A stretch of 33,604 nucleotides of DNA from a virus (IMGVR_UViG_3300029319_000232:1-33604); one strand, 5' to 3'; shown: positions 6,501 through 32,108, counted from the stretch's first letter. Numbers and translations are program-made. The notes: a model not told the origin generated them from the letters alone.

Positions 6501-9500
6501 ACAAACAGCAAGTGAATTAGATAGGTTAGGGTTTGAACTAGCAAAACAAGAATTAACAAAAACAGAGGGATTTAAAAGAGCCTTATTATTTGATACTGCT
6601 GCGGTTCAACAAGGAAATCCATCTGTGCAGAGAGGTAATATACCTGACGAATTTGGAGCGAAGCTATTATCAAAGTTGCCCATGAAAGAACAGCTTGAGT
6701 TTAAACAATTTCAAGATGCACAAAAAACAACATGGCTTCAGCACGTTAAAACAAGAGGAGGCTTTAGCCCAGTAGAGGAGCAGGGCTTTCTATTTCAGAA
6801 AAAGTACTATGATACTTATTTTGATCAAGACGGAAATTTTAAATCTAATGAGGAGCTAGGATTAAGATTTGGCGTGGAGGATCAAGGTCTTAATGTTCCC
6901 ACACCCTCTGGTGGAGCAGATGATGTATTAGCAACTGTAAACAATATTGCATCTGCTGATCATATTGCTTTAAGCAAAGGATACACAGTACGCCTTACAC
7001 CAAAACTTAAAGTAACATTAAATCAGGGTCAGTTATCTTTTTCTCTTGGATACACACCTGAAGGAGACAATGTTACTGGAATAGATAAGACTCTTATGGA
7101 GAGGGTTATATCAACTCTCACAGAGAACCAGTATCTCATATCCTCACTGCCAGAACTAGAAGATGACCCAAAGGGCGATCCGACACTTAACTTTAGAAAT
7201 CTAATACCGTCCACAGGAAGACGTAATGTTCCTGTAGTGATGAGAGACTACCTGACACACAGACAGAACAGAGCAGGTGACTTTAGAATAAATCTAGATG
7301 ACGTAACGGATGCTGATAAAGATAACATTTCTACGATAATGGCAGCCGAAGCAGAGGTTGCACTAGCCAGAGATGGCAACGCAATAGGATGGTATGATGC
7401 TAAATTTAGAGCGGCTAAAAGTTTAATTGGTCTCATACGTCCAGAGATACTCAATAACCCTGAACATGATGCAGTGTTTGATTATGCGTTGGCAGTTACA
7501 TCTAACGGTATAGCAGTCAATCAAAACTTTGATTACGCATTAAGACAATATGATTATTGGGTAGAGAACGGTAAGTTTGAAGAGGTAGGTTATGGGCAGT
7601 CAGCAAAGGCTATGGAAGCTCACTTTGCCTTGTACAATACGCTCACTGACCTAATGAAGTCTGGTGACTATAAGAGACCAAAGAGACTAGACAATTACCC
7701 ACCAGAAGCCATAGGCGTAGACATAGAACATTTCCTCGACAGAGATATAAAAATCAGAGACCTGATAAATGACCCTGTATTGAGCGGTATAGCAGAGAGA
7801 AGTGGGGTAAGTCTTTCATCACTAGGATCACAGGAGAAGAAAGACACTGTGGTTAAGATGTCAACGATTATAGGGTCGAAGATAGGTGGTGGATTCTATC
7901 AGAACCTCAGAGGTAACTATGATCCTTTGACTATGGATAAATGGTGGATGCGTTTCTTTAATAGAATTACAGGAAATCCATTTAAGGTACCTCAGGATAA
8001 AACACAGCTAAAAAATTATAACGATTTTCTACAAGAGATAACTGTTAACAAAGCTAATCTAAAGCCAATAGAAAAACAGCTTCTCAAGCAAGCTAGGAAC
8101 ATGATAGGAAACGTGCCTCTGCGTAGAGACATGACAGCTAGAACAAACCAAAGAATGGATCAGCGAGTTATTGATTTAGCTATAGAGTATTCAATTCTAA
8201 GAAATGCCTATTACAATAGAATGTCTGACGGTGCTATAGAGGGCTTTCCAGATGGTGTGGTTGGTAAAGGTCCTAACAAAACAACGCCAGAGGAAAACAT
8301 ACTTATAAGGTCTACAAACAGAGATAGATATGACCTTAATCAAAAACCGCAGTCTGTTTTACTAGCGGATAGCATAAAGAGAAATTTTAAAGACTTTCCT
8401 GCTGACTCACCAAGAAGTGCGACAGATCGTGAGTTGATGAGAGAAACAACAGAGATGGCTATAAAAAAATTAGAGCAACGTGGTGTAGTTGCCAGAGGTG
8501 CTTTAACAAACTCTGACTTTCAAGCATTAATGTGGTTCCATGAAAAAGAACTTATGGACAAGTTAGGAGCTAAACTAGGGAGCGGAGAGCAAAATGATTT
8601 TGTAGATAGTGCCATACAAGCACTAAGAGAGAGAGGTATAGACGATGACACGATTAAGGAAACACTCCCCATTGCTGAACGAGGAAGGATCGTTGGTGCA
8701 GGAGATGCCGAAAGAAGAGTTGCCGAACCTAGCGAAGGCTCTATTGCGGCTAGGCAACAACTCGCAACTTTCAAAAGCGTTAAAGAAAAGAACGACATTA
8801 CAAGAAAACAAGCAGAAGACATCAAGAAAGAGCTAGATCAAGATCGACAGAAGTACTACAGCTTGGGATACATTCCAGAAGAAAGAGAAAGAGACAGAGC
8901 AAACTTTGAAAGCACACTAAGAGCTAACGTGCAGGACTTCCAACATAAATGGAACTACAGTGCATCATCAGACTTTGTCGCTAAAATACTAGGTGGCATC
9001 AAGATAGGGCAAAGCTTTCAGCTAGGATACAGTGATGAAAAAGCCAAAGCATTATCTGATCTCTTTATTAGAAAGTTCCAAGACAGAATGATACCTGTGT
9101 CTAGAATGGTGGATGAGTTACAGGAGAAAGGATTTAAACTAACAGATGCTCTCAATCCTATTATGCAGGCTAGACTATCACAGGGTAAAGCAAACGAAGA
9201 GATACGAGACAAGAGAGAGACAATCCACAAGGATGTAGTTGAAGCTGTAGCAAAGCTTAACTTTACAGACGCAGATTTTGAGCAACTCAAGAGTGTATCG
9301 AATGCCGCTACTGACCCTGACCAAGGAGGAGAGGGCTACATAGAGGTGGTCATGAAAGATTTTATGCCATCGTTCTGGAGAAGGATGTTGTTTGGCACAC
9401 CAAGCAAGAAGTTGGTCATGGCAGAAACATATCTCTATGCTCTACACGCTAAAGAGAGAAACAACTATGTCAGAGAGATTGATGTAAACAACATCAATCA

Positions 9501-11991: not shown

Positions 11992-12013
11992 AAAAAGTAT
12001 TATGGTACTTTCT
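11992..12013. repeat. Dispersed 22-bp palindrome at a convergent junction
   Basis: AAAAAGTAT, TATG, GTACTTTCT. It overlaps the stop codon of the leftward 68-aa gene and lies 25 bp after the stop of the giant gene, so it sits exactly between two converging transcription units. Confidence 0.75.
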
Positions 12014-14580: not shown

Positions 14581-15308
14581 TAGCTTGCTCCTTGTAAGTT
14601 ATCTAATTTGGTTTTGGTTTCTTGTTTAAATTTAGCCATCAAATCTGCATCGTCTTTAAATGTGTTTATGGCTTCTTGGTTTACCGAAATAAACTCCTTT
14701 AGATGGTTCACAGACCCTTGATCTTGCATGAAGTGTTTTAGTATTCTAAACACCGCTTGCGGATGGGTCTCACCCTCATTCTTCTTTACTTCGTTATTCT
14801 TACCAGACAATTCTTTCACCACAGTTTTAATCTCTTCCTGTTTGCTGCCTGGCGGCGGAGTAGTTGTATTTTGTACCATAGTACTTTTTGGTTCTACCGT
14901 AGTAGAATTACCATCGTCATCTGTTTCTGGATCACATTCTAGGTTCAACATGGATTGAAGTAGATATCTTCTCATGTAGGTGATGCCACTACCGATTGCT
15001 TGGCTACCCTTTTTCGTATCGTCAAGACAGCTAACTTTACTTTCTAGTTTCTCACCAGAGGGCAGGTGGTACAGGGTACAAACCAATATGTTTTCTATTC
15101 TGTCACTCATATTCACCACCTCTGTGGTAAAAGATATGTGTATACCATTCTCCTCTAGAGGTTTCTTGCAAGAGTCAAACACATCCATAAGAGTGGAGTA
15201 TTTGCTTGAGAATGCAGGATTTTTACCAGACTTCTTTAGTTCTGAGAAACCCTCTCCTCTTGCTTTCTCTATCGCTTCAAATATTTTTTCTTTAAGTGGC
15301 TCAACCAT
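14580..15308 (-). CDS. erf: ERF-family single-strand annealing protein (242 aa)
   Basis: It anneals complementary single strands during phage recombination and genome circularisation. The ERF signature is visible: KSGKNPAFSSKYSTL near 26-40, and GSGITYMRRYLLQSMLNLE near 107-125, followed by DPETDDDGN. The C-terminal half is a low-complexity linker (KSTMVQNTTTPPPG) and a helical tail. The start at 15308 is preceded by GGAAAAG and overlaps the upstream gene. Partners in the operon are the PD-(D/E)XK nuclease, the HNH nuclease and the possible SSB, a typical exonuclease-recombinase arrangement. One copy of the dispersed palindrome is embedded in the linker. Confidence 0.9.
   Translation of the reverse strand: MVEPLKEKIFEAIEKARGEGFSELKKSGKNPAFSSKYSTLMDVFDSCKKPLEENGIHISFTTEVVNMSDRIENILVCTLYHLPSGEKLESKVSCLDDTKKGSQAIGSGITYMRRYLLQSMLNLECDPETDDDGNSTTVEPKSTMVQNTTTPPPGSKQEEIKTVVKELSGKNNEVKKNEGETHPQAVFRILKHFMQDQGSVNHLKEFISVNQEAINTFKDDADLMAKFKQETKTKLDNLQGAS
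14868..14889. repeat. Dispersed 22-bp palindrome, inside erf
   Basis: ATTTTGTAC, CATA, GTACTTTTT: one perfect arm; the other keeps only GTAC of the inner core. It encodes the KSTMVQN linker between the ERF core and the C-terminal tail, where amino-acid constraint is probably weak. Confidence 0.6.
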
Positions 15309-16215: not shown

Positions 16216-16237
16216 CCTTTGTACTATGGTACTTTTT
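16216..16237. repeat. Dispersed 22-bp palindrome overlapping a stop and a ribosome binding site
   Basis: CCTTTGTAC, TATG, GTACTTTTT. One arm supplies the TAA stop of the nuclease gene; the degenerate other arm has become the AAAGG of the next gene's ribosome binding site. Confidence 0.75.
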
Positions 16238-17657: not shown

Positions 17658-19406
17658 ATGCTAAACTCAAACATGAGCAACATGGTACTCAGTTTAGGTA
17701 AAGGGCAACATAAACTACAATGCCCATCGACAGAGTGCCAACAGCGAAAAAAGAAAAATCTTAAAACATTATCCGTTAAGGTGGATATGGATGGGGCAGT
17801 TTACTATTGCCACCATTGTAATCTTAGTGGTCAAGAATTTTATAATAAACATAGGGAAACTAAAATGACTTCAATACCAAAGATAGAGAAAAAACCATTG
17901 AGTATCAATGGGTTAGAGTGGCTTAACAAAAGAGGTATCAGCGAATCAACTGCCGATAAGTTGGGCATTACAACTTGCACACATTACATTCAAGGAGTTG
18001 GAAACGAGACAGAATGTGTGATGTTTCCCTACACAAACAGAGGTCAGGTATACGCATCTAAAATTAGATCGATAACTGAAAAAGGGTTTGCTTGTTCTGG
18101 TTCACCACAAAGTTTTTTTAACTTGGATAGGGTGGACACTACCAAGCCACTAATAATATGCGAGGGGGAGTTGGATGCATTGTCATTTATTGAGTGTGGT
18201 GCAGAGGATATTGCTTCCGTTGTCAGCGTACCGAATGGAGCGGTTATGAAAGTAGTTGATGAAGAGTTTGCAAAGAAAGACGATAGTAAGTTTCGTTTCC
18301 TGACAAATGCAGAAGAGATGCTAGAAGAAGTGGAGAAAGTAATCATAGCAACTGATTCGGATACAGCAGGGCAGGCTATGGCAGAGGAAATGGCTAGGAG
18401 AATAGGTAAGCATAAATGTTTTAAGATAAACTATCCGAAGGATTGCAAGGATGCTAACGATGTTATTCTTAAAAAAAGTACCATAGCACTTTTTGAATTG
18501 ATCGATCTTGCCTCCGCCTATCCAGTATCAGGATTGTATGATGCATCTCAGTTTTACAAAAACTTAGATAGTTTATATTCAGACGGCTTTGGGAAGGGGG
18601 AAAGTACAGGGTTCGACAATGTTGATGAGTTATACACAGTTGTTAAGTCGCAACTCACTATCGTTACAGGTCATCCGTCAAGTGGTAAGTCAGAGTTTAT
18701 AGATCAACTGATGGTTAACCTTGCCGTCAATAAGGGATGGAAGTTTGCTGTAGCAAGTTTTGAGAATCAACCAGAGATACATTTAGCTAAGATTATATCC
18801 AAGTATAAAAAGAAACCTTTCTTTGATGGACTGAACCCAAGACTTACAAAAGAGGAATTGGATGATGGTAAAGACTTCATAAAGAAGCACTTTTACTTTG
18901 TGCATCAGAGGGATGGTAGCTTGAGTTCAATTGATTCCCTGTTAGAAAGGATCAGGATTAGTGTATTACGTTATGGTACAAACGCTGTCGTCATAGACCC
19001 CTACAACTATATCATGCGACCGACAGATGAACAGGAGACAGCATTTGTGTCTAGTCTGCTAAGTAAGATACGAGTGTTTGCTCAGACCTATGATATCCAC
19101 GTTTGGCTCGTTGCTCATCCTACTAAGATGATGCGAGATAGTTCTGGTAAAGTGCCACCGCCTATGGCTTACGATATCTCTGGCTCTGCTCACTTCTTCT
19201 CTAAGACCGATTGTGGTCTCACCATACACAGACCAGACCCTGCTAACAGCAATATTACAGAGGTGCATTGTTGGAAGTGTCGATACTCATGGGTGGGCAA
19301 ACAAGGACAAACCATACTAAGCTACGATGGGTTGACATCTACATACAAACCTTTTGAGCCTTACAAGGGCATAGACGAGTTGTTTTCTGATGTTCCAGAC
19401 TTTTAG
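17658..19406 (+). CDS. Bifunctional primase-helicase, T7 gp4 type (582 aa)
   Basis: It makes RNA primers and unwinds the fork. A zinc ribbon uses Cys22, Cys27, Cys51 and Cys54. The Toprim primase core has Glu169 in CEGELDAL and Asp233/Asp235 in IIATDSDTAGQA. A linker near 270-290 leads to the DnaB/gp4-type helicase, with Walker A GHPSSGKS (338-345), Walker B VVIDPYN (Asp447) and a LVAHP motif (484-488). The length is near the 566 aa of T7 gp4. GGAG 7 bases before the ATG supports the start. A copy of the dispersed palindrome lies exactly in the primase-helicase linker. No DNA polymerase gene accompanies it in this window. Confidence 0.93.
   Translation: MLNSNMSNMVLSLGKGQHKLQCPSTECQQRKKKNLKTLSVKVDMDGAVYYCHHCNLSGQEFYNKHRETKMTSIPKIEKKPLSINGLEWLNKRGISESTADKLGITTCTHYIQGVGNETECVMFPYTNRGQVYASKIRSITEKGFACSGSPQSFFNLDRVDTTKPLIICEGELDALSFIECGAEDIASVVSVPNGAVMKVVDEEFAKKDDSKFRFLTNAEEMLEEVEKVIIATDSDTAGQAMAEEMARRIGKHKCFKINYPKDCKDANDVILKKSTIALFELIDLASAYPVSGLYDASQFYKNLDSLYSDGFGKGESTGFDNVDELYTVVKSQLTIVTGHPSSGKSEFIDQLMVNLAVNKGWKFAVASFENQPEIHLAKIISKYKKKPFFDGLNPRLTKEELDDGKDFIKKHFYFVHQRDGSLSSIDSLLERIRISVLRYGTNAVVIDPYNYIMRPTDEQETAFVSSLLSKIRVFAQTYDIHVWLVAHPTKMMRDSSGKVPPPMAYDISGSAHFFSKTDCGLTIHRPDPANSNITEVHCWKCRYSWVGKQGQTILSYDGLTSTYKPFEPYKGIDELFSDVPDF
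18473..18494. repeat. Dispersed 22-bp palindrome, inside the primase-helicase gene
   Basis: AAAAAGTAC, CATA, GCACTTTTT: one mismatch in an otherwise perfect palindrome. It encodes KKSTIALF at the junction between the Toprim and helicase domains. Confidence 0.7.
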
Positions 19407-19477: not shown

Positions 19478-19507
19478 TTGACAACAAGCCAAAATCGTCC
19501 GTATATT
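19478..19507 (+). promoter_or_regulatory. Sigma70-type promoter candidate
   Basis: TTGACA at 19478-19483 is a perfect -35 box, and TATATT at 19502-19507 is a good -10 at 18-bp spacing. It lies in the gap after the primase gene, and a strong terminator follows about 50 bp downstream, so the only product is a short RNA. Confidence 0.55.
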
Positions 19508-19513
19508 ATCGAA

Positions 19514-19584
19514 TGTGAATAGCACTACCTATGCGAAATCACTTCACTATGAAACCTTGGGTCTCTTCGGAGACCCTTTTTTTT
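19514..19584 (+). ncRNA. Candidate small RNA of about 70 nt
   Basis: The transcript is defined by a consensus-like promoter upstream and an intrinsic terminator at its 3' end. Inside, GTGAA (19515-19519) can pair with TTCAC (19543-19547), with ATAG/CTAT pairing nested within it, before the terminator stem. No ribosome binding site precedes the ATG at 19531. It fits an antisense-type or sponge RNA in layout; targets are unknown. It could instead be a coincidental promoter within the 3' UTR of the primase transcript. Confidence 0.4.
19559..19584 (+). terminator. Intrinsic terminator with UUCG loop
   Basis: GGGTCTC pairs with GAGACCC around a TTCG tetraloop, followed by eight T. It ends the rightward RusA/primase transcription unit and the candidate small RNA. 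Confidence 0.92.
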
Positions 19585-19636: not shown

Positions 19637-19658
19637 AAAAAGTATCATGGTACTTTTT
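19637..19658. repeat. Dispersed 22-bp palindrome in a convergent intergenic region
   Basis: AAAAAGTAT, CATG, GTACTTTTT. It lies between the rightward terminator (19559-19584) and the leftward terminator (19704-19738). CAGGATT just before it can pair with AATCCTG at 19685-19691, enclosing it together with an ATTTAAAT-GCTG-ATTTAAAT hairpin. The rest of the 440-bp gap between the primase gene and the 67-aa gene holds the small RNA, the terminators and no gene I can support. Confidence 0.75.
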
Positions 19659-19703: not shown

Positions 19704-19738
19704 AAAAAAAAGCCCCCAGACATTTCTGTCTAGGGGCT
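19704..19738 (-). terminator. Strong leftward intrinsic terminator
   Basis: Read on the minus strand, a 12-bp stem (AGCCCCTAGACA with TGTCTGGGGGCT, one U-G pair) closes a GAAA tetraloop, followed by eight U. It ends the MoxR/VWA operon. Confidence 0.93.
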
Positions 19739-19761
19739 GAGTTGGGAGGAAAGTACCTGCT

Positions 19762-19798
19762 AAAAAATGGGGCGGTGAAAGGAATATAAAACCGCCCC
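19762..19798 (-). terminator. Second leftward terminator, in tandem
   Basis: On the minus strand GGGGCGGT pairs with ACCGCCCC around a 14-nt loop, followed by A and six U. It lies upstream of the stronger terminator, so leftward transcripts meet two in a row. A further 7-bp hairpin (AATAACC/GGTTATT at 19807-19830) precedes it. Confidence 0.7.
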
Positions 19799-19845
19799 AA
19801 GTACACAATAACCCACAGGTAAAGGTTATTGGTGTTCATGTTAAA

Positions 19846-20219: not shown

Positions 20220-20332
20220 GGTGCGTACCATAAAACTACAAGTATCCATAAACCCACGATGCCACCTAAAAGAAGTACAAGTGATACCGCATCAACAATT
20301 GTCTTTAAGACTTCTAACCAATTGATCTTCAT
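20216..20332 (-). CDS. Single-span membrane micro-protein (38 aa)
   Basis: A 38-codon gene lies between two others with ATGA overlaps at both ends, which is the main reason to accept it. The N-terminus MKINWLEVLKTIVDA is amphipathic, followed by a membrane span from about residue 16 to 36 (VSLVLLLGGIVGLWILVVLW). It could be a pinholin, a regulator of the neighbouring membrane protein, or an inhibitor of a host membrane complex; sequence does not decide. Confidence 0.6.
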   Translation of the reverse strand: MKINWLEVLKTIVDAVSLVLLLGGIVGLWILVVLWYAP

Positions 20333-21615
20333 GACGTTATCTCCAACTCGTTAGCAATCCTAGTGACAAGCTTCTTGTCTAGGTCTCTGTTAGCCTTACC
20401 TATGTCCTCATGAACTGCGTGAAGAACATCACCGCTTGGCAAAGTCTTAGCCATAAGGAAAAGGTTAGGTATCACATTAGGAGTAAACTCATAGCCTTTA
20501 TGCATTCCCTCTTTGTCAGTATACCCATTAGCTTCAGTTCTTTTAGTGAAAGCAAAGTCAACAAAGTTACCCTTGTATAACTTCTTGCCCTCTTTCTTGA
20601 CCCAATCCAATTCAACATAAGAGCCTTTCTTTTCATCGTACTTTTTATAAACAGTAAGGCTCATAGGAAACAAAGGTCTGTTGCCCATGTATGATTTGCC
20701 AAAGTAAGAACACCGCTCGTTCCACATAGGTGAAACCTGCAATGTCCATTCTTTGTTGCTATAGGATTTAGTAGTCATCTGGCAGGTACGCTTCAAGAAT
20801 GCTTTGGTAGAGTACTTGACCTTATCCTCTGGGTTCCAATCATACTTTGTTTTTTCACCAAAAAATGACATGGGCAAGTGAACCTGTACATCTGAATTAT
20901 TCTTAGCATCTTCTAGCAGACCCTTAGACTTTCTCAGCAAATCAACATACGTTGCTCCACTCTCAGATTCTATGTAAGTGTTACATTGTACATCTAGATG
21001 TTCATATGCTTTTGGAAATTCACTAGCTAGTGATCTATCAGCTCCATATCTAGCACTACCTAAACGACTATCTATTTTAGAAAAATATGAAGTGTTTTGA
21101 GAATCGTATCTAAGGTCTTTCAAAGACTCCAACTGATGAACAAAACCCATAAGATTAGCACCAACATCACCACTAGAATAATCTCTAGAGAAGTTACCAA
21201 AATTTTCAGCAAAGACATAAGCTTGTCTGATATCTCCGCCTGCGGTGTTCTCCTTTTTAATAGTTACTGACTTAGAACCTAACCGCCTGCCTGTGCTATG
21301 TTGTGTGTGATACGTTCTATTCTTTTCATTAGAAACATCAGCAATAAAGTCTTTTGGAATGTCTAATGTCTCTCTCTGAAAGTTTACACATTGTGCAAGT
21401 TTTATCTTTGCAAGATATTGTTTAACAGCAGTTTCTCTTTTCCTACCTGCTTTATCTTGGGCGGTCTTCCAATACCATCTAGGTCTCTTGTTATAGATAT
21501 AGTCTTTAGCTTCCTGCTTAGTGTCAAATATCTTTCCATCTGGCATAACCGTCCATGTGTATTCTGGCGGTTCACCTACAGACGTAGCCTGCTTTATGAT
21601 TGTGCGTTTTTCCAT
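20329..21615 (-). CDS. Large hypothetical protein (428 aa) in the MoxR/VWA operon
   Basis: I recognise no family. It is soluble, with no signal peptide or membrane span. The N-terminal 60 residues (YTWTVMPDGKIFDTKQEAKDYI) look like a small alpha/beta element; a basic, Ser/Asn-rich middle (residues about 95-190) follows, and a beta-rich C-terminal half. Cysteines are scattered, not paired as in zinc sites. AAAAGGAA precedes the ATG. A long hairpin carrying the dispersed palindrome fills the 115-bp gap upstream, so its expression may be set apart from the ATPase and VWA genes. By gene order it could be the substrate or effector of that pair. Confidence 0.8.
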   Translation of the reverse strand: MEKRTIIKQATSVGEPPEYTWTVMPDGKIFDTKQEAKDYIYNKRPRWYWKTAQDKAGRKRETAVKQYLAKIKLAQCVNFQRETLDIPKDFIADVSNEKNRTYHTQHSTGRRLGSKSVTIKKENTAGGDIRQAYVFAENFGNFSRDYSSGDVGANLMGFVHQLESLKDLRYDSQNTSYFSKIDSRLGSARYGADRSLASEFPKAYEHLDVQCNTYIESESGATYVDLLRKSKGLLEDAKNNSDVQVHLPMSFFGEKTKYDWNPEDKVKYSTKAFLKRTCQMTTKSYSNKEWTLQVSPMWNERCSYFGKSYMGNRPLFPMSLTVYKKYDEKKGSYVELDWVKKEGKKLYKGNFVDFAFTKRTEANGYTDKEGMHKGYEFTPNVIPNLFLMAKTLPSGDVLHAVHEDIGKANRDLDKKLVTRIANELEITS

Positions 21616-21650
21616 TTTTGATTCCTTTTCTTAAATGGTGTTTCTCTAGG

Positions 21651-21709
21651 GCAACCCTAAAGAGAATACAAAAAGTACCATAGTATTTTTGCATTCTCAC
21701 AAAGGTTGC
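21651..21709 (-). promoter_or_regulatory. Long intercistronic hairpin with the palindrome at its tip
   Basis: GCAACC (21651-21656) pairs with GGTTGC (21704-21709) and GAGAAT (21662-21667) with ATTCTC (21693-21698), in the same register. The tip is the dispersed palindrome at 21670-21691 (AAAAAGTAC, CATA, GTATTTTTG). A 5x5 internal loop separates the stems. It lies 36 bases before the 428-aa start. It may be a processing site, an mRNA stabiliser, an attenuator or a DNA cruciform. Confidence 0.75.
21670..21691. repeat. Dispersed 22-bp palindrome upstream of the 428-aa gene
   Basis: AAAAAGTAC, CATA, GTATTTTTG: one perfect arm. It is centred about 65 bp before the start codon, like the copies before the MoxR and GroES-like genes. 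Confidence 0.8.
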
Positions 21710-21726
21710 AGGGGGCAATGCCCCCT
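21710..21726 (-). terminator. GC-rich hairpin just after the VWA gene
   Basis: AGGGGGCA and TGCCCCCT form an 8-bp inverted repeat with a single central base, starting 5 bases after the VWA stop. No U-tract follows, so it is at best a weak terminator; an RNA stabiliser is as likely. It stacks directly on the long hairpin at 21651-21709. Confidence 0.45.
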
Positions 21727-21730
21727 ACAA

Positions 21731-22972
21731 TTAGTCATCGATGAATATTGTTGTGCCATAAGGTGGCAGGTAATAACTGCCAAGCTTTTCTTTAGATTGG
21801 CAACATACCCAGATAATGTCACAAGGCTCATCGAACTGCGGTTCGTCACCGTAGTCACTGATCTCGCAATCAGTAAAGATAACAAGCTTCTTGAAATTAA
21901 AGTCCTGCCAATTCTCATCGATGTATTGAAAAGCAGGTCTGATCTTAGTACCACCTGTACCATTGATCTTGAGAGACTCTATCTCCTCGCCCTGTTCAAA
22001 CCGCTTGATACCATCAACGTCAACTCTGGATGTAAACGGTATGACAGTGATAGAGTCTGGCTTGATATCTTTAGACAAAGCATTCATCTCTGAGAAACCT
22101 CTATCTCTTTGCTTCTTATCGACAGAAGCAGAGGTATCTTGAAGCACTCCGATATCACCGCATGACATACCTACAATGGTAGGTGTAATAGCATCCCATG
22201 TAAGGTGCTTCTTATTAAGCTTCCTATATGTATAGGTAGAGTCATTGTCACCGCCCTGCCAATGGAAAGTAAGTGCTTCCTGCCATTCAACCTTAGACTC
22301 TTCAACTCTGTTTAGAACGTCTTGAATCTCTTGATTGATTGCACCTACCTGCTTTGCTTTGATACCTGCTTGAACAATTTTTCTATCAATAGACTTGCTG
22401 AGTTTTTCTAACTGCTCTTGGTTCATCTCAGAGCCGTCTTCATTAGTAGGCTTCTCTATCTCACCGCCCCAAGGCTGTTGCGGTTCATCCTTAACAGCGT
22501 CCTTGTTCTGCTCAAGCACCGCATATATTTCCTCTGCGGTCATCTTCCTGCACTTGTCTCTATCAAGACCTAAGTCTCTCATTTCAACAAGACCGCCTTT
22601 AGGTAACTGTAACCGTAGGTCTGGTTTACGAAACGATGCCATACCAAAGAAACGGTCTCTCTGATAGTCGTAGGTCTCTATCGTATTGTTGACCTTTAGG
22701 TCACAGGCAAAGTTCCATAACTTAGGGTCTCTGTTTCCCATGCGGATATGGTGCTTGTCTACTATGTGCATAATCTCATGCACAAGTACGGTTGCATTTT
22801 CTATAACAGTTAAAGTCTCAACAAACGGTAAAGAATAGAAAATGTTTTTGCCATCAGTACACATTGTCTCAATGTCATTGCGCTCTGTTGGGTTGCCTGC
22901 AATCATCACTCCACCGTAAAAGGTGAAGTGATTTGATACGATTGACTTGGCTAATGCTATTTTGTTTTCCAT
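21731..22972 (-). CDS. Zincin metallopeptidase-like protein with VWA domain (413 aa)
   Basis: The N-terminal domain carries HEIMH at 65-69 with His74/His75 following and CDLKVN (Asp91) downstream, as in the putative metallopeptidase domain found with DUF2201 VWA-like proteins. The C-terminal domain is a von Willebrand A fold. DTSAS at 279-283 matches the MIDAS DxSxS metal site, and LVIFTDCEISD is the later strand-loop. Residues about 150-200 are a charged helical linker. Members of this family pair with MoxR-type AAA+ ATPases, the upstream gene here, only 8 bases away, with GGAG in the gap. Together they probably remodel or insert metal into a target complex; protease activity is possible but unproven. 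Confidence 0.88.
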   Translation of the reverse strand: MENKIALAKSIVSNHFTFYGGVMIAGNPTERNDIETMCTDGKNIFYSLPFVETLTVIENATVLVHEIMHIVDKHHIRMGNRDPKLWNFACDLKVNNTIETYDYQRDRFFGMASFRKPDLRLQLPKGGLVEMRDLGLDRDKCRKMTAEEIYAVLEQNKDAVKDEPQQPWGGEIEKPTNEDGSEMNQEQLEKLSKSIDRKIVQAGIKAKQVGAINQEIQDVLNRVEESKVEWQEALTFHWQGGDNDSTYTYRKLNKKHLTWDAITPTIVGMSCGDIGVLQDTSASVDKKQRDRGFSEMNALSKDIKPDSITVIPFTSRVDVDGIKRFEQGEEIESLKINGTGGTKIRPAFQYIDENWQDFNFKKLVIFTDCEISDYGDEPQFDEPCDIIWVCCQSKEKLGSYYLPPYGTTIFIDD

Positions 22973-22980
22973 GTTAACTC

Positions 22981-24081
22981 CTAAACATAAATATCATTTA
23001 AATGTCCATCAGCGACTAACTGCTTGAAAGTATCTGATGATCGAACACCGCTACAAACTGCCATGCAATCCTGCATACAAACCTGCAATAGGTCTCTGTT
23101 ATCTAATCGCACACAATATTCCGCAATAGCAGGGAACGTGTCTAATGTGCAACGTGCAGATAAAGAGCCTAACAATACGAACAGTATGTCCGCTCTATCG
23201 CAGATCGGAGCATTAGCAGGGTCATCCAGAATAGCATCCAAGTTAGTTAACTCTGGAGCGGTCTGAACTACCTCTAGGAATGCCATGAAGCTGTTAGTCG
23301 TAGCTTCCCCTATTGTACCAGATAGCAAAGCCTGTAAGCAGGTTAGATCGCCCTCAAGACCCATATTCAATATATTGTCTGCTCTTTCCCATGCTCTAGG
23401 TGTAGAGGTTGAGTCCTGCGTTGGGTCAGAGTGACAGAAGACCGTAGAGTCTTCCTTGCCTTTGAACCGCATGAAAGCAGGAATATAGGGAGACCATCCT
23501 CTCTTAGTGGCAAGTTCACAAAATTCATCTAGGTCTGGTTCAACATAGATGAATGTAACCCTGTCCTTAATATGCGTAGGAATGCGGTTAGTACCTGCCT
23601 TATCTTTTAGGCGGTTACCTGCACACATAAAGAACCAACCGTCTGGAAGCTTGTATTCACCTACCATGCCATCATTCATAAGAGGAGCGATAGCGTTCTG
23701 AGTGGGAATAGGTGCTTGCGGAAATTCATCGCCAAAAACCCAACCTACTTCAATACCTGCGGTCTTCTTAGCAACTACATCTAGATACCAATGAGACTTT
23801 AAAACTTTTGTTTTATCGTTGGCTAAGTCTGGCATCTGGATACCATTAACCTCTGTAGGGTCTTTCTGTGCTAGAGCAATCTCAACCATACCCATATCTA
23901 GACCATTGTAAGGCTCTCTAACTGATTGCCTTGCACAATCTGTTTTACCAATTCCCTGCATCCCCATGAGCATAGGAACAATTGGTTTTGCTCCTGTACC
24001 TGCTTTCTGGTTTTCGTAGTTAGAAATTAGGCAATGTCTTAATATCTTGCCTGCTTGTTTTATGCTTACTGTTTGTGTCAT
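22981..24081 (-). CDS. MoxR-type AAA+ ATPase (366 aa)
   Basis: It is a chaperone-like ATPase. Walker A GMQGIGKT is at 40-47, Walker B VFGDEF at 115-120 with Asp118/Glu119, sensor-1 Asn in CAGN (156), and a conserved arginine in THIKDRVTF (about 173). The motifs suit MoxR/RavA-like enzymes, which work with VWA partners to activate or assemble other proteins. The partner is the next gene. AAGGA 8 bases before the ATG supports the start. A 64-base hairpin bearing the dispersed palindrome occupies the gap upstream. The host, being a bacterium, may have its own MoxR; this copy has all key residues and is probably active. Confidence 0.9.
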   Translation of the reverse strand: MTQTVSIKQAGKILRHCLISNYENQKAGTGAKPIVPMLMGMQGIGKTDCARQSVREPYNGLDMGMVEIALAQKDPTEVNGIQMPDLANDKTKVLKSHWYLDVVAKKTAGIEVGWVFGDEFPQAPIPTQNAIAPLMNDGMVGEYKLPDGWFFMCAGNRLKDKAGTNRIPTHIKDRVTFIYVEPDLDEFCELATKRGWSPYIPAFMRFKGKEDSTVFCHSDPTQDSTSTPRAWERADNILNMGLEGDLTCLQALLSGTIGEATTNSFMAFLEVVQTAPELTNLDAILDDPANAPICDRADILFVLLGSLSARCTLDTFPAIAEYCVRLDNRDLLQVCMQDCMAVCSGVRSSDTFKQLVADGHLNDIYV

Positions 24082-24121
24082 TTTTTATTCCTTTCATAAT
24101 GACTCCATAAACTCACCATTA

Positions 24122-24185
24122 AGTTTATGAGTAGGGAGTCTCGAAAAATACTATGGTACTTTTGAAGACTCCTAACTGATAAACT
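24122..24185 (-). promoter_or_regulatory. 64-base near-perfect intercistronic hairpin
   Basis: AGTTTAT (24122-24128) pairs with ATAAACT (24179-24185), GGAGTCT (24135-24141) with AGACTCC (24166-24172), and the tip is the dispersed palindrome with TATG loop at 24152-24155. All pairs are in one register, with only a few mismatches. It begins at the base after the stop of the 234-aa gene and ends 41 bases before the MoxR start. It suits RNase III-type cleavage, attenuation or a DNA cruciform; there is no U-tract for a normal terminator. Confidence 0.8.
24143..24164. repeat. Dispersed 22-bp palindrome upstream of the MoxR gene
   Basis: GAAAAATAC, TATG, GTACTTTTG. It forms the tip of the 64-base hairpin and is centred about 72 bp before the MoxR start codon. 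Confidence 0.8.
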
Positions 24186-24890
24186 TTAGAACGATATCTT
24201 CTTTTGACCTGCAACATCAGAGACAGGTGCTAGAGCATCAGCAATTGCGGTAACCTTATTGTTAAGCTTCTTAACTTCCGCTCCTGCTTTCTTAGCCTTA
24301 GACATTTTCTTTTTGGCTTGATCTTCAAAAGATTGTCTAGTCGCTATCGCTTCTTCTAGTCTGCTCTTTAGATCGAGGACAATATCCATATCCTTACCGC
24401 CCTTGTATTTAGTTCCGCACTTGGCAGGAACACCAACAACAGAGTCGATAACTTTCTGGACAAAGTCTCTGTTAGCTTCCTTGTTAGGGTTGCATATGTC
24501 CATCAACTTAGCTTCAGAGGTGATCTTGAATTGCTCCATAACCTTTACGATATGGTCAACGCTAGTATCATTCTGACCTGCAAAAGCATCATTCTTGATC
24601 ACTAAGAACTGATGTAACCAACTAAGCTTTTCAGACTTTTTCTTTTGTTGATTATCGTTTAAGCCTGCTTCCATAAGACCTTCTCTGATAGTCGCAAGAT
24701 CATCAGATTTTAATTCTGTCTTCCTGCTTATGATCGCAGAGGTTGAAAGCATAGTCGCATAGGTCTGGCAATTTGAAAGATTTATCTTTTCAGAGTTCTT
24801 TTTGTTGTTGCCTTTTAGTCTATTGATAGAGAGATCAAGAGACTTGATAGAGGATATAGCATCCTGTGTAAGATTAATTTTAGTGTCCAT
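24186..24890 (-). CDS. Helical hypothetical protein (234 aa) in the MoxR/VWA operon
   Basis: I recognise no family. The protein is soluble and nearly all helix. The first 50 residues have a heptad-like pattern, a basic stretch lies near 85-90, and the C-terminal 70 residues form a Lys/Ala-rich coiled coil (KKKMSKAKKAGAEVKKL) before a short flexible end. Three or four cysteines are isolated. AAAGGAAC supports the ATG at 24890. It precedes the MoxR gene in the same transcript, so it may be an adaptor or substrate for the ATPase/VWA pair or a DNA-binding coiled-coil protein. The leader before it holds competing RNA structures. Confidence 0.78.
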   Translation of the reverse strand: MDTKINLTQDAISSIKSLDLSINRLKGNNKKNSEKINLSNCQTYATMLSTSAIISRKTELKSDDLATIREGLMEAGLNDNQQKKKSEKLSWLHQFLVIKNDAFAGQNDTSVDHIVKVMEQFKITSEAKLMDICNPNKEANRDFVQKVIDSVVGVPAKCGTKYKGGKDMDIVLDLKSRLEEAIATRQSFEDQAKKKMSKAKKAGAEVKKLNNKVTAIADALAPVSDVAGQKKISF

Positions 24891-24913
24891 GATTAAGTTC
24901 CTTTCATAAATGT

Positions 24914-24968
24914 TAACACTATAAACAAAGCAGGTTCATCCTGCTTTGATCACAGTGTTACCTGTGAT
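24914..24968 (-). promoter_or_regulatory. Structured leader with pseudoknot-like pairing
   Basis: On the minus strand: hairpin 1 pairs ATCACAG with CTGTGAT (24949-24968). Hairpin 2 pairs AAAGCAGG with CCTGCTTT (24927-24947). TAACACT, in the loop and first stem bases of hairpin 1, can pair with AGTGTTA (24914-24920) beyond hairpin 2. The last pairing lies some 10 bases before the ribosome binding site. This is the layout of a translation-controlling leader; no known riboswitch class is recognised. Confidence 0.45.
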
Positions 24969-25033
24969 GCACTGATAAAGATTTACGACTCTGTAAGTAT
25001 TCCAACCTACTAAGCTACCACCATTATTTTAGA

Positions 25034-25177
25034 CTAGGTGTTTAGATCAGCTATGGTCTCCACGTTAAAGGTCTGGATATCGTCAGTACGTTTTGCATCT
25101 AGGCTACAAGGGTCACAGGTTTTAACCAGAATGCCCCTAAAGGGGCAGAGCAAATTCAACCCTTGTGCGTTCCGCAT
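25034..25177 (-). CDS. Small CxxC protein (47 aa), first gene of the MoxR/VWA operon
   Basis: This 48-codon frame begins with ATG at 25177, preceded by AAGGTGA at 6 bases. The product has Cys11 and a C-DPC pair at 21-24 (KTCDPCSLDAKR), compatible with a small zinc or redox site, then an acidic amphipathic C-terminal stretch. It is shorter than the usual ORF cutoff. The composition looks like a real protein, and the gene is the only one between the leftward promoter candidate and the 234-aa gene. I do not recognise the family. A chance frame is still possible. Confidence 0.5.
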   Translation of the reverse strand: MRNAQGLNLLCPFRGILVKTCDPCSLDAKRTDDIQTFNVETIADLNT

Positions 25178-25244
25178 TGAACGTCACCTTATGTCTAATC
25201 TGAATTAATCCATGTGAACTCCTTTCTAAAAAATTATAAGTAAA

Positions 25245-25272
25245 ATTATATATGTAAGTACTTTTTCAACAA
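25245..25272 (-). promoter_or_regulatory. Leftward promoter candidate with a palindrome half-site in the spacer
   Basis: On the minus strand a perfect TATAAT (25245-25250) stands 16 bp after TTGTTG (25267-25272). The spacer contains AAAAAGTAC (25258-25266), one arm of the dispersed palindrome, so a protein reading that arm would overlap the promoter. It would drive the MoxR/VWA operon. Downstream, a strong AAAGGAG precedes a start codon that is followed by only one sense codon before TAA (25205-25213). Confidence 0.5.
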
Positions 25273-25337
25273 TTACAATAGTAGTACAAAAAAAATATTC
25301 AATAAAAGTAAACTTAATTATCTGATATCAAAAGGTT

Positions 25338-25359
25338 AAAAAGTACTATGGTATTTTTC
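25338..25359. repeat. Dispersed 22-bp palindrome in the divergent region before terS
   Basis: AAAAAGTAC, TATG, GTATTTTTC. It sits in the 283-bp divergent region between the MoxR/VWA operon and the packaging operon. The rest of that region holds the two promoter candidates, an A-rich stretch and no supported gene. Confidence 0.8.
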
Positions 25360-25429
25360 CCAGATCGAAATCTCACCTATGCCAACGGGAACGCCTGTAA
25401 GGGCTTGTAAGTATGTCAGGTATATTGGG

Positions 25430-25459
25430 TTGAAAAATGTATCAATGCCCTGTTATAAC
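25430..25459 (+). promoter_or_regulatory. Rightward promoter candidate for the packaging operon
   Basis: TTGAAA (25430-25435) and TATAAC (25454-25459) are 18 bp apart, about 37 bp before the terS start. The match is fair. The dispersed palindrome lies 70 bp upstream of the -35 box, an activator-like rather than repressor-like position. Confidence 0.4.
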
Positions 25460-25495
25460 TAATTCTGAGAGGTCAATTTTTTTGGAGTTATTAAA

Positions 25496-28621: not shown

Positions 28622-29497
28622 ATGGCAGAAGATAAAGACAAGAAACGAAAAGAAATTCGTGAAAGACTAAAAAAGTCTAGAGAGAGTGGTGGAATAGATC
28701 GGAGTATAAACCGACTTACTGTCAGTTCGCCAGGTGGTGATCCAACCAATAGAAACAAAGACGGCAGTATCAAAAGAACAAAACAAATAAGAAAAGAATT
28801 TTCTACGAAAGAAAGTGTTCTTCCTAAAAAGAGAGTTGTTAAGAAAACAACAGTTAAAGCAGACCCTGCTAAAAAGACAACAAAGAAAGGCTCACCAAAA
28901 GGTCAAGCAGGAAAAGGTGCATCTCCATTAGAGGGTAAGCCAAGAAGTATAGCAGAAGCAAAGAGAAGAGGTGAAGTATACTTCTTTGATAGCAAGGGTG
29001 TTAAGAAGATAGCGGCTACTGCGGCAGACTTGAAAAGAACAGGACTGACACTTAGACAGTACGCTAATAAGTTTGCGCCTAAAAAACAAACTAAGAAACA
29101 CGCAGAATCATTAAAAGGTTTTGCCGCCATTAAAAAGAAAAGAGCAGGCGGTATGATGAAGAAAAAAGGCATGGCTCGTGGTGGCATGATGATGAAAAAG
29201 AAGGGCATGGCTAAAGGCGGTGCTATGAAGAAGAAAGGAATGGCTGCAGGCGGTAAGCTTAAAATGGTCATGAAAGATGGTAAGAAAGTACCTTTCTTTG
29301 CCGCAGACGGTAAAGGTAAAATGCGTGGCGGTGGCATGATGAAGAAGAAGGGCTACGCTATGGGTGGAGCCATGAAGAAAAAGGGTATGGCAAAAGGCGG
29401 AGCCATGAAAAAGAAGGGCTACAAAAAAGGCGGTAAAGTTCTTAAAATGAGAGGTGGAGGTCTAGCCACAAGGGGTACGAGCTTCACAATTAAATAA
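28622..29497 (+). CDS. Lys/Gly/Met-repeat protein (291 aa)
   Basis: GAGGAG before the ATG supports the start. The N-terminal half is very basic with alternating Lys and Thr/Pro, and contains GEVYFFDSKGVKKIAATAAD and LKRTGLTLRQYANK (about 119-150), a pattern I recall in marine phage proteins. From residue 178 come six 11-residue repeats of the form MMKKKGMAxGG, interrupted by KLKMVMKDGKKVPFFAADG, and the protein ends with the KMRGGG tail shared with the previous gene. It is likely a DNA- or capsid-binding virion component, by composition and place. TAATG couples it to the portal gene. Confidence 0.75.
   Translation: MAEDKDKKRKEIRERLKKSRESGGIDRSINRLTVSSPGGDPTNRNKDGSIKRTKQIRKEFSTKESVLPKKRVVKKTTVKADPAKKTTKKGSPKGQAGKGASPLEGKPRSIAEAKRRGEVYFFDSKGVKKIAATAADLKRTGLTLRQYANKFAPKKQTKKHAESLKGFAAIKKKRAGGMMKKKGMARGGMMMKKKGMAKGGAMKKKGMAAGGKLKMVMKDGKKVPFFAADGKGKMRGGGMMKKKGYAMGGAMKKKGMAKGGAMKKKGYKKGGKVLKMRGGGLATRGTSFTIK
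29153..29463 (+). repeat. Six 33-bp coding repeats
   Basis: Six copies of an 11-codon unit (x-M-K-K-K-G-[MY]-A/K-x-G-G) lie in two blocks of three, separated by a 27-residue spacer ending KMRGGG. Codon differences between copies show that they have diverged and are maintained at the protein level rather than freshly duplicated. Confidence 0.85.
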
Positions 29498-32086: not shown

Positions 32087-32108
32087 AAAAAGTACTATGG
32101 TGCTTTTC
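32087..32108. repeat. Dispersed 22-bp palindrome before the co-chaperonin gene
   Basis: AAAAAGTAC, TATG, GTGCTTTTC. It starts at the base after the TAA of the 62-aa gene and ends 47 bases before the next ATG. Two short, mutually exclusive hairpins (AAGGA/TCCTT and GTGAT/ATCAC, 32119-32140) lie between it and the start codon. Confidence 0.75.

Follow-up and report, generated by a model that had tools for sequence, protein, structure and literature searches.

Two hairpins that interrupt an operon encoding a MoxR-like ATPase and a VWA protein carry one palindromic tip on different outer stems; the question they raise is whether selection maintains them as RNA, as DNA, or as both. They lie in a 33.6-kb virus contig (the window, meaning the whole 33,604-nucleotide stretch analyzed) that comes from an uncultivated, probably marine phage. 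Family scans identified genes for terminase, portal, GroES, primase-helicase, ERF, exonuclease, RusA, a DNA methyltransferase, and a giant LPD38 protein; integrase, repressor, and RNA polymerase were absent among the matches listed for the window and a near-complete relative, G001 (in one scan, the first 25 of 81 PHROGs), and the lifestyle is apparently lytic. A search for tRNAs returned none. The nearest annotated phages by terminase (56–59%) are 023Pt_psg01, Pelagibacter phage HTVC027P, and phage DSL-LC04, and the operon region has no relatives among annotated phages at the DNA level. Elsewhere in the contig, the gene at 28622–29497 contains a repetitive Gly/Met/Lys-rich tract (29147–29416) made of imperfect 33–54-nt repeats. 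The following operon genes, with starts set by Shine-Dalgarno score, frame the gaps:

24186 to 24890, minus strand: 234-aa gene with no assigned function (sister-clade homolog at 28% identity)
22981 to 24081, minus strand: MoxR-like ATPase gene, PHROG 1297 (family scan)
21731 to 22972, minus strand: VWA/DUF2201 gene, PHROG 1314 (family scan)
20329 to 21615, minus strand: 428-aa gene with no assigned function

The operon is also present in four contigs (L004–L007) with a MoxR identity of 92–93%; their gaps are 94–99% identical, so that hardly any covariation is available within the window's clade. A scan for the tip pattern led to a sister clade, represented by G013 and, starting from it, by G014–G020. 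All of these relatives are assembled metagenomes and comprise few independent lineages. Terminase and portal proteins of the sister clade are 85–88% identical to those of the window and the primase-helicase 64%, whereas the 234-aa, MoxR, and VWA proteins are just 28–33% identical (window 20329–24890; L048 15801–18911); the operon therefore stands out as a divergent island, the genomes being similar elsewhere.

The two hairpins of the original prediction are present with all of their arms, accompanied by two further structures:

24120 to 24185, minus strand: gap-1 hairpin, between the 234-aa gene (stop at 24186) and MoxR (start at 24081), conserved in L004–L007
21651 to 21709, minus strand: gap-2 hairpin, between the VWA gene (stop at 21731) and the 428-aa gene (start at 21615)
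21710 to 21726, minus strand: GC-rich hairpin AGGGGGCATTGCCCCCT adjoining the gap-2 hairpin, with no U-run after it
24914 to 24960, minus strand: long hairpin lacking the tip, in the operon leader gap (24891–25495) upstream of the 234-aa gene

In gap 1, the outer stems AAGTTTAT/ATAAACTT and GGAGTCT/AGACTCC enclose the tip in a 66-nt near-palindrome of a single register, with about 28 pairs possible and Watson-Crick pairing at 18 of 23 outer positions; no other center in the window scores so high. The gap-2 stems are GCAACC (21651–21656)/GGTTGC (21704–21709) and GAGAAT (21662–21667)/ATTCTC (21693–21698). Fold z-scores are −4.2 for gap 1 and −4.0 for gap 2, with none of 200 shuffles equally stable; the values for the transcribed strand only (−7.2 and −5.5) refer to tighter or slightly different stretches. 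Both hairpins are conserved in the four close relatives. The gap-1 hairpin begins at the upstream stop codon and the gap-2 hairpin follows the GC-rich one, and sister-clade gap hairpins begin no more than about 20 nt from the stop before them. The operon leader gap has a long hairpin too, so that the two gaps are not the only structured long ones. Neither hairpin appears in a list of rho-independent terminator-like structures that does include 19738–19711 and 19559–19576, and the outer stems are not followed by a U-run, which tells against the attenuator once suggested for them. Rfam returned no family match for the hairpins at gathering or relaxed thresholds, and weak, sub-threshold sRNA-like matches on the operon 3′UTR.

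The tip has a distribution of its own. In the window's clade it is a palindrome of about 20 bp, AAAAGTAC-YATR-GTACTTTT. The sister clade's version, AAAAGTT-N6-AACTTTT, often occupies homologous positions. Allowing up to three mismatches to the 20-nt tip, ten matches were found in a search of both strands (some being one site read both ways) where 0.01 would be expected by chance. There are about 10 copies in the window, about 11 in the 52-kb G001, and 10–14 in G013, G017, and G020, and a reversed-pattern control gave 0–1, so that the palindrome recurs across the genome beyond chance, without orientation. The copies in the window are:

24144 to 24163, no strand: gap 1, AAAAATACTATGGTACTTTT on the plus strand (tip-pattern match)
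21671 to 21690, no strand: gap 2 (tip-pattern match)
18474 to 18493, no strand: within the primase-helicase gene, kept in relatives
19638 to 19657, no strand: convergent region between primase-helicase and operon end
25339 to 25358, no strand: divergent region between operon start and the terminase small subunit gene
32088 to 32107, no strand: between portal and GroES; the homologous sister-clade site has that clade's version
11993 to 12012, no strand: directly after the giant LPD38 gene
6800 to 6819, no strand: degenerate copy within the giant LPD38 gene
14873 to 14884, no strand: tip core GTACCATAGTAC within the ERF gene
16221 to 16232, no strand: tip core GTACTATGGTAC directly after the exonuclease gene

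Pair-breaking transitions in the tips, read on the transcribed strand at 47 distinct directional sites, comprise 20 G.U and 27 A.C. The tip shows no sign of selection as RNA, and because there is no RNA-strand preference it is interpreted as a DNA site, probably one that a dimeric protein would bind; that it acts at the DNA level is fairly well supported. The portal/GroES site and similar homologous places carry each clade's own version while the flanks align, which suggests a trans-acting recognizer. As for a cognate binding protein, family scans turned up neither a repressor nor an integrase nor any clear helix-turn-helix protein. Two G013 copies, at 2339 and 49718 (L048:2339 and L050:9718), have the GTAC version of the other clade and the remaining G013 copies GTT, perhaps through recombination. 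The strand test rules out the tip as an RNA hairpin, and its AT-rich composition and several copies within genes rule it out as a terminator. N4-type hairpin promoters, with the giant gene as a virion RNA polymerase, were also considered and rejected; family scans of its product gave an LPD38 domain and unknown PHROGs, and no polymerase.

The palindrome families of HTVC027P and 023Pt_psg01 include none of the tip type. The closest known case appears to be the 17-bp dyad repeats of Cluster O mycobacteriophages such as Corndog, which are likewise many copies of one short palindrome in the absence of an integrase; many are intergenic, about a third lie in coding sequence, and they are unoriented with respect to transcription and of unknown function (PMC4351075). 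The Corndog sequence is different (TGTTCGG-N3-CCGAACA) and has more than 30 copies, against 10–14 here; unlike Corndog, the present phage has two clade-specific half-site versions in corresponding places, and loops of selected RNA hairpins enclose some of its copies. Cluster A mycobacteriophage stoperators resemble the tips in being protein-binding sites that occur many times across a phage genome (predicted, for the tips). According to PMC4351075, stoperators lack symmetry and follow the direction of transcription, whereas the tips are symmetric and unoriented, in a phage for which family scans found neither integrase nor repressor.

Outer stems give a different result from tips. On the transcribed strand their deviations are nine G.U and one A.C (Fisher p 0.007 against the 20:27 of the tips, with hand-picked stem registers and both kinds of deviation counted alike). 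In 14 of 16 comparisons (four genomes, 3′UTRs counted) the transcribed strand folds into more structure than its complement does. Sister gap 1 is homologous to gap 1 of the window (flanking genes 28–32% identical) and holds a stem, CAGGGCAGT/ACTGCCTTG, that has no sequence in common with GGAGTCT/AGACTCC; sister gaps 2 and 3 have stems GATGGGGATT/AATCCCTATC and GGGACACTA/TAGTGTCCC around the tip. Other copies of the tip had been said to lack long stems, which is accurate for the window; the sister clade departs from it, with three copies in the same operon on long stems of unrelated sequence. Long stems are confined to the long gaps of this one operon, and tip sites elsewhere lack long arms. 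Compensatory changes were sought in homologous gaps and two were found: a C-G to G-C swap in gap 3 between sister subclades (GGGACACTA/TAGTGTCCC vs GGGAGACTA/TAGTCTCCC), and a T-A to C-G swap in gap 2 of G020. Taken by itself, the gap-2 count lacks significance relative to shuffled controls (128/500). The case for stem selection thus includes two swaps from few independent sequences. In gap 3 of G016, G017, and G020 the stem is retained with nine pairs, a GCGA tetraloop as its cap, and no tip; the tip is present in G013, G014, and G015. Because of the swaps, the G.U bias, and the tip-less stem, the stems look selected as mRNA, and the tip looks like a DNA site within the loop. Selection of the outer stems as mRNA structure is well supported by these comparisons, and the tip is separate from them, happening to lie in the loop and sometimes absent from it. 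The proposal that structure and not primary sequence is selected therefore applies to the outer stems, with their swaps, sense G.U bias, and unrelated stem in the homologous sister gap, and does not extend to the tip, whose sequence is conserved and free of RNA-strand bias.

The same observations bear on three explanations at the DNA level. The whole hairpin could work as an extended DNA operator, either a cruciform or an inverted-repeat binding site of greater length, as the dyad character of the tip and the single register across 66 bp of gap 1 would allow; the outer-stem deviations are sense G.U and not A.C, the arms are unequally spaced around the tip in sister hairpins, and a stem persists when the tip is gone, which makes this very unlikely. 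A mobile palindromic element inserting into hairpin loops, one of the possibilities first raised, would account for gap 3, where some relatives have the tip and others GCGA alone. This is one clean presence/absence case in total; a second absent copy is a replacement and not a clean empty site, almost all other copies occupy homologous positions in all relatives, and neither a mobility gene nor a target duplication was seen, leaving mobility with slightly poorer prospects still. The arms could also be a neutral by-product of template switching seeded by a selected operator and lengthening its inverted repeats, for which the perfect register in gap 1 is suggestive. Compensatory swaps, tip-less stems, and the restriction of long stems to one operon's long gaps argue against it, and it is further weakened by the sites outside the operon, which have no long arms and hence no spread of arm lengths; we give it hardly any credence.

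If the stems are RNA, they may be RNase III processing signals, cut to give monocistronic mRNAs with defined ends, as RNase III processing does in T7. Their intercistronic position, the roughly 28 pairs of gap 1, and selection of structure over sequence are compatible with this. The nine-pair gap-3 hairpin with its GCGA cap is short for RNase III, however, and internal loops break the gap-1 and gap-2 helices of G013, so that we consider such processing unlikely, if not negligibly so. RNA processing or stabilization, as originally proposed, is nevertheless the best class for the hairpins, and their function is most likely to protect 3′ ends, by analogy with the bacterial operons discussed below.

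Genes directly behind long gaps share an extended leader (GAAAGGAA in the window's clade, GGAGTGAAAA in the sister clade) that closely coupled genes lack. Leaders behind a long gap have 8–11 nt complementary to a loop in the operon 3′UTR or to a second candidate RNA (sRNA2), against 4–7 nt for the closely coupled VWA and 146-aa genes; the match is absent for a G013 ORF behind a 128-nt gap. The elements concerned are:

24082 to 24097, minus strand: MoxR leader TGAAAGGAATAAAAA before ATG, 10-nt complement to the 3′UTR loop
24891 to 24906, minus strand: 234-aa gene leader GAAAGGAACTTAATC before ATG, 8-nt complement to the 3′UTR loop
21616 to 21630, minus strand: 428-aa gene leader GAAAAGGAATCAAAA before ATG, 8-nt complement to the 3′UTR loop
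19704 to 19845, minus strand: structured operon 3′UTR (z −6.2, transcribed strand), ending in a rho-independent terminator (19738–19711)
19768 to 19799, minus strand: 3′UTR hairpin with arms TGGGGCGGT and ACCGCCCCA and anti-leader loop TTTATATTCCTTTC
19478 to 19584, plus strand: candidate small RNA gene sRNA2, about 70 nt, adjoining primase-helicase, with promoter and terminator

The operon 3′UTR is strongly structured (z about −6 to −7). The window loop TTTATATTCCTTTC sits on a GC stem, and its four best duplexes in the genome are with MoxR, the 234-aa gene, a small operon gene, and ERF. The sister 3′UTR has a mini-loop GGGTTCACTCCC in a covarying stem (CCGATAGGC vs CCAATGGGCA); with this short, GC-rich loop some unrelated leaders reach equally good duplex energies. 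Long-range pairing of the first hairpin loop with the stretch after the second hairpin is also possible in these 3′UTRs (window 19704–19845; L059, L056, L062), through TACCTG/CAGGTA in the window, CCTGCTATA/TATAGCAGG in G013, and CTGCTAA/TTAGCAG in G017.

The putative sRNA2 gene has a sigma-70-like promoter (TTGACA-18-TATATT, 19478–19507) and a terminator with a TTCG tetraloop (19559–19576) followed by T8; its G013 counterpart lies at about 21547–21625 on the minus strand. In the window its sequence is complementary to the primase-helicase (TTCATAGTG) and exonuclease (GCATAGGTA) leaders, which, with their orthologs in G017 and G020, give the longest sRNA2 complements through differing seeds; in G013 the leader of the exonuclease gene falls outside the best matches. 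In the sister clade, operon leaders are complementary to sRNA2 as well. Five G013 leaders have at least 9 nt of complement (null mean 0.5, maximum 4, 300 shuffles), and just two in the window (null mean 0.17, maximum 3). Leader and seed change jointly between the clades (TTCATAGTG vs GTCAGAGTG for primase-helicase, GCATAGGTA vs AAAATTACAT for exonuclease), and operon leaders (GAAAGGAATA vs GAGTGAAAA) change alongside the loop sequence. Distant primase-helicase relatives (44–46% identity), used as a negative control, have no MoxR/VWA match; the circuit is not seen there, since the leader complement downstream of primase is just 5–8 nt and there is no promoter. Complementarity to the operon's own leaders, as in a 3′UTR-derived autoregulatory sRNA, was thus found, post hoc. 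The anti-leader loops were noticed on reading the sequence and not predicted beforehand, which makes a chance level hard to give, and each leader match is partly the Shine-Dalgarno sequence; we regard the complementarity as a strong lead and not as a planned test.

A ribosome-controlled switch would use the same region differently, the 3′ arm having two alternative partners, the 5′ arm and a repeat directly ahead of the next leader (CATAAACTTAATGGTGAGTTTATG in gap 1, TCTCTTTAGGGTTGCCCTAGAGA in gap 2), so that a ribosome at the stop covers the 5′ arm, flips the fold, and couples translation of the neighbors. Both window gaps have this 1-2/2-3 arrangement, and the 5′ arm of gap 1 begins at the stop codon. 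The second pairing leaves the Shine-Dalgarno sequence uncovered and forms no terminator, and sister gap 1 has an additional, independent hairpin in place of the alternative pairing; a switch is accordingly improbable.

The best reading, to which we assign a probability of about 0.5, is that of protective hairpins ahead of sRNA-targeted leaders, with an operator in the loop. Each long gap of the operon contains an mRNA hairpin near the upstream stop (within about 20 nt of it, or beside another hairpin that is) and then the extended leader of the next gene. The leaders would be targets of base-pairing phage RNAs from the operon's own 3′UTR and from sRNA2; pairing would bring about cleavage or Rho termination in the leader, as in gal and iscRSUA, and the hairpin would cap and protect the upstream cistron at its 3′ end once the message is cut or transcription stops there. 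Levels of neighboring cistrons would be uncoupled in this way, and a DNA operator would sit in the spare loop.

Known bacterial systems offer parallels. RyhB drives discoordination of iscRSUA with a protective hairpin, as cited in PMC3896431; a hairpin at the galE 3′ end blocks exonuclease (PMC11925234), and Spot 42 acts at a cistron junction of the gal operon (PMC8577784). The phage operon resembles these systems (PMC3896431, PMC8577784, PMC11925234) in having a hairpin close to where the upstream cistron ends, without an intrinsic terminator, and the start of its next cistron is likewise sRNA-complementary. Unlike iscRSUA and gal, it has hairpins in successive gaps and a palindromic DNA site in the loop, and its hairpin function is a prediction. 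The 3′UTR sRNAs OppZ and CarZ act on their own operon (PMC7398697), and the candidate RNA from the phage operon's 3′ end similarly complements its own operon's translation starts; it differs from them in that several leaders share the target motif, in that the loop varies alongside between clades, and in being a candidate.

A wider RNA regulon is a tentative proposal that we hold as possible, with the odds somewhat against it: the 3′UTR RNA and sRNA2 would pair with shared leader motifs of MoxR/VWA and replication genes, the hairpins insulating neighboring cistrons and a genome-wide DNA operator being nested in their loops. If so, one locus would be read both as RNA and as DNA. The G.U/A.C strand test sets apart two signals that resemble one, a family of DNA sites and a selected RNA hairpin with a shared center. 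If the leaders are sRNA targets, the phage would encode a post-transcriptional circuit coevolving in trans, and a role would emerge for the long gaps that flank MoxR/VWA genes, which are widespread in phages but obscure.
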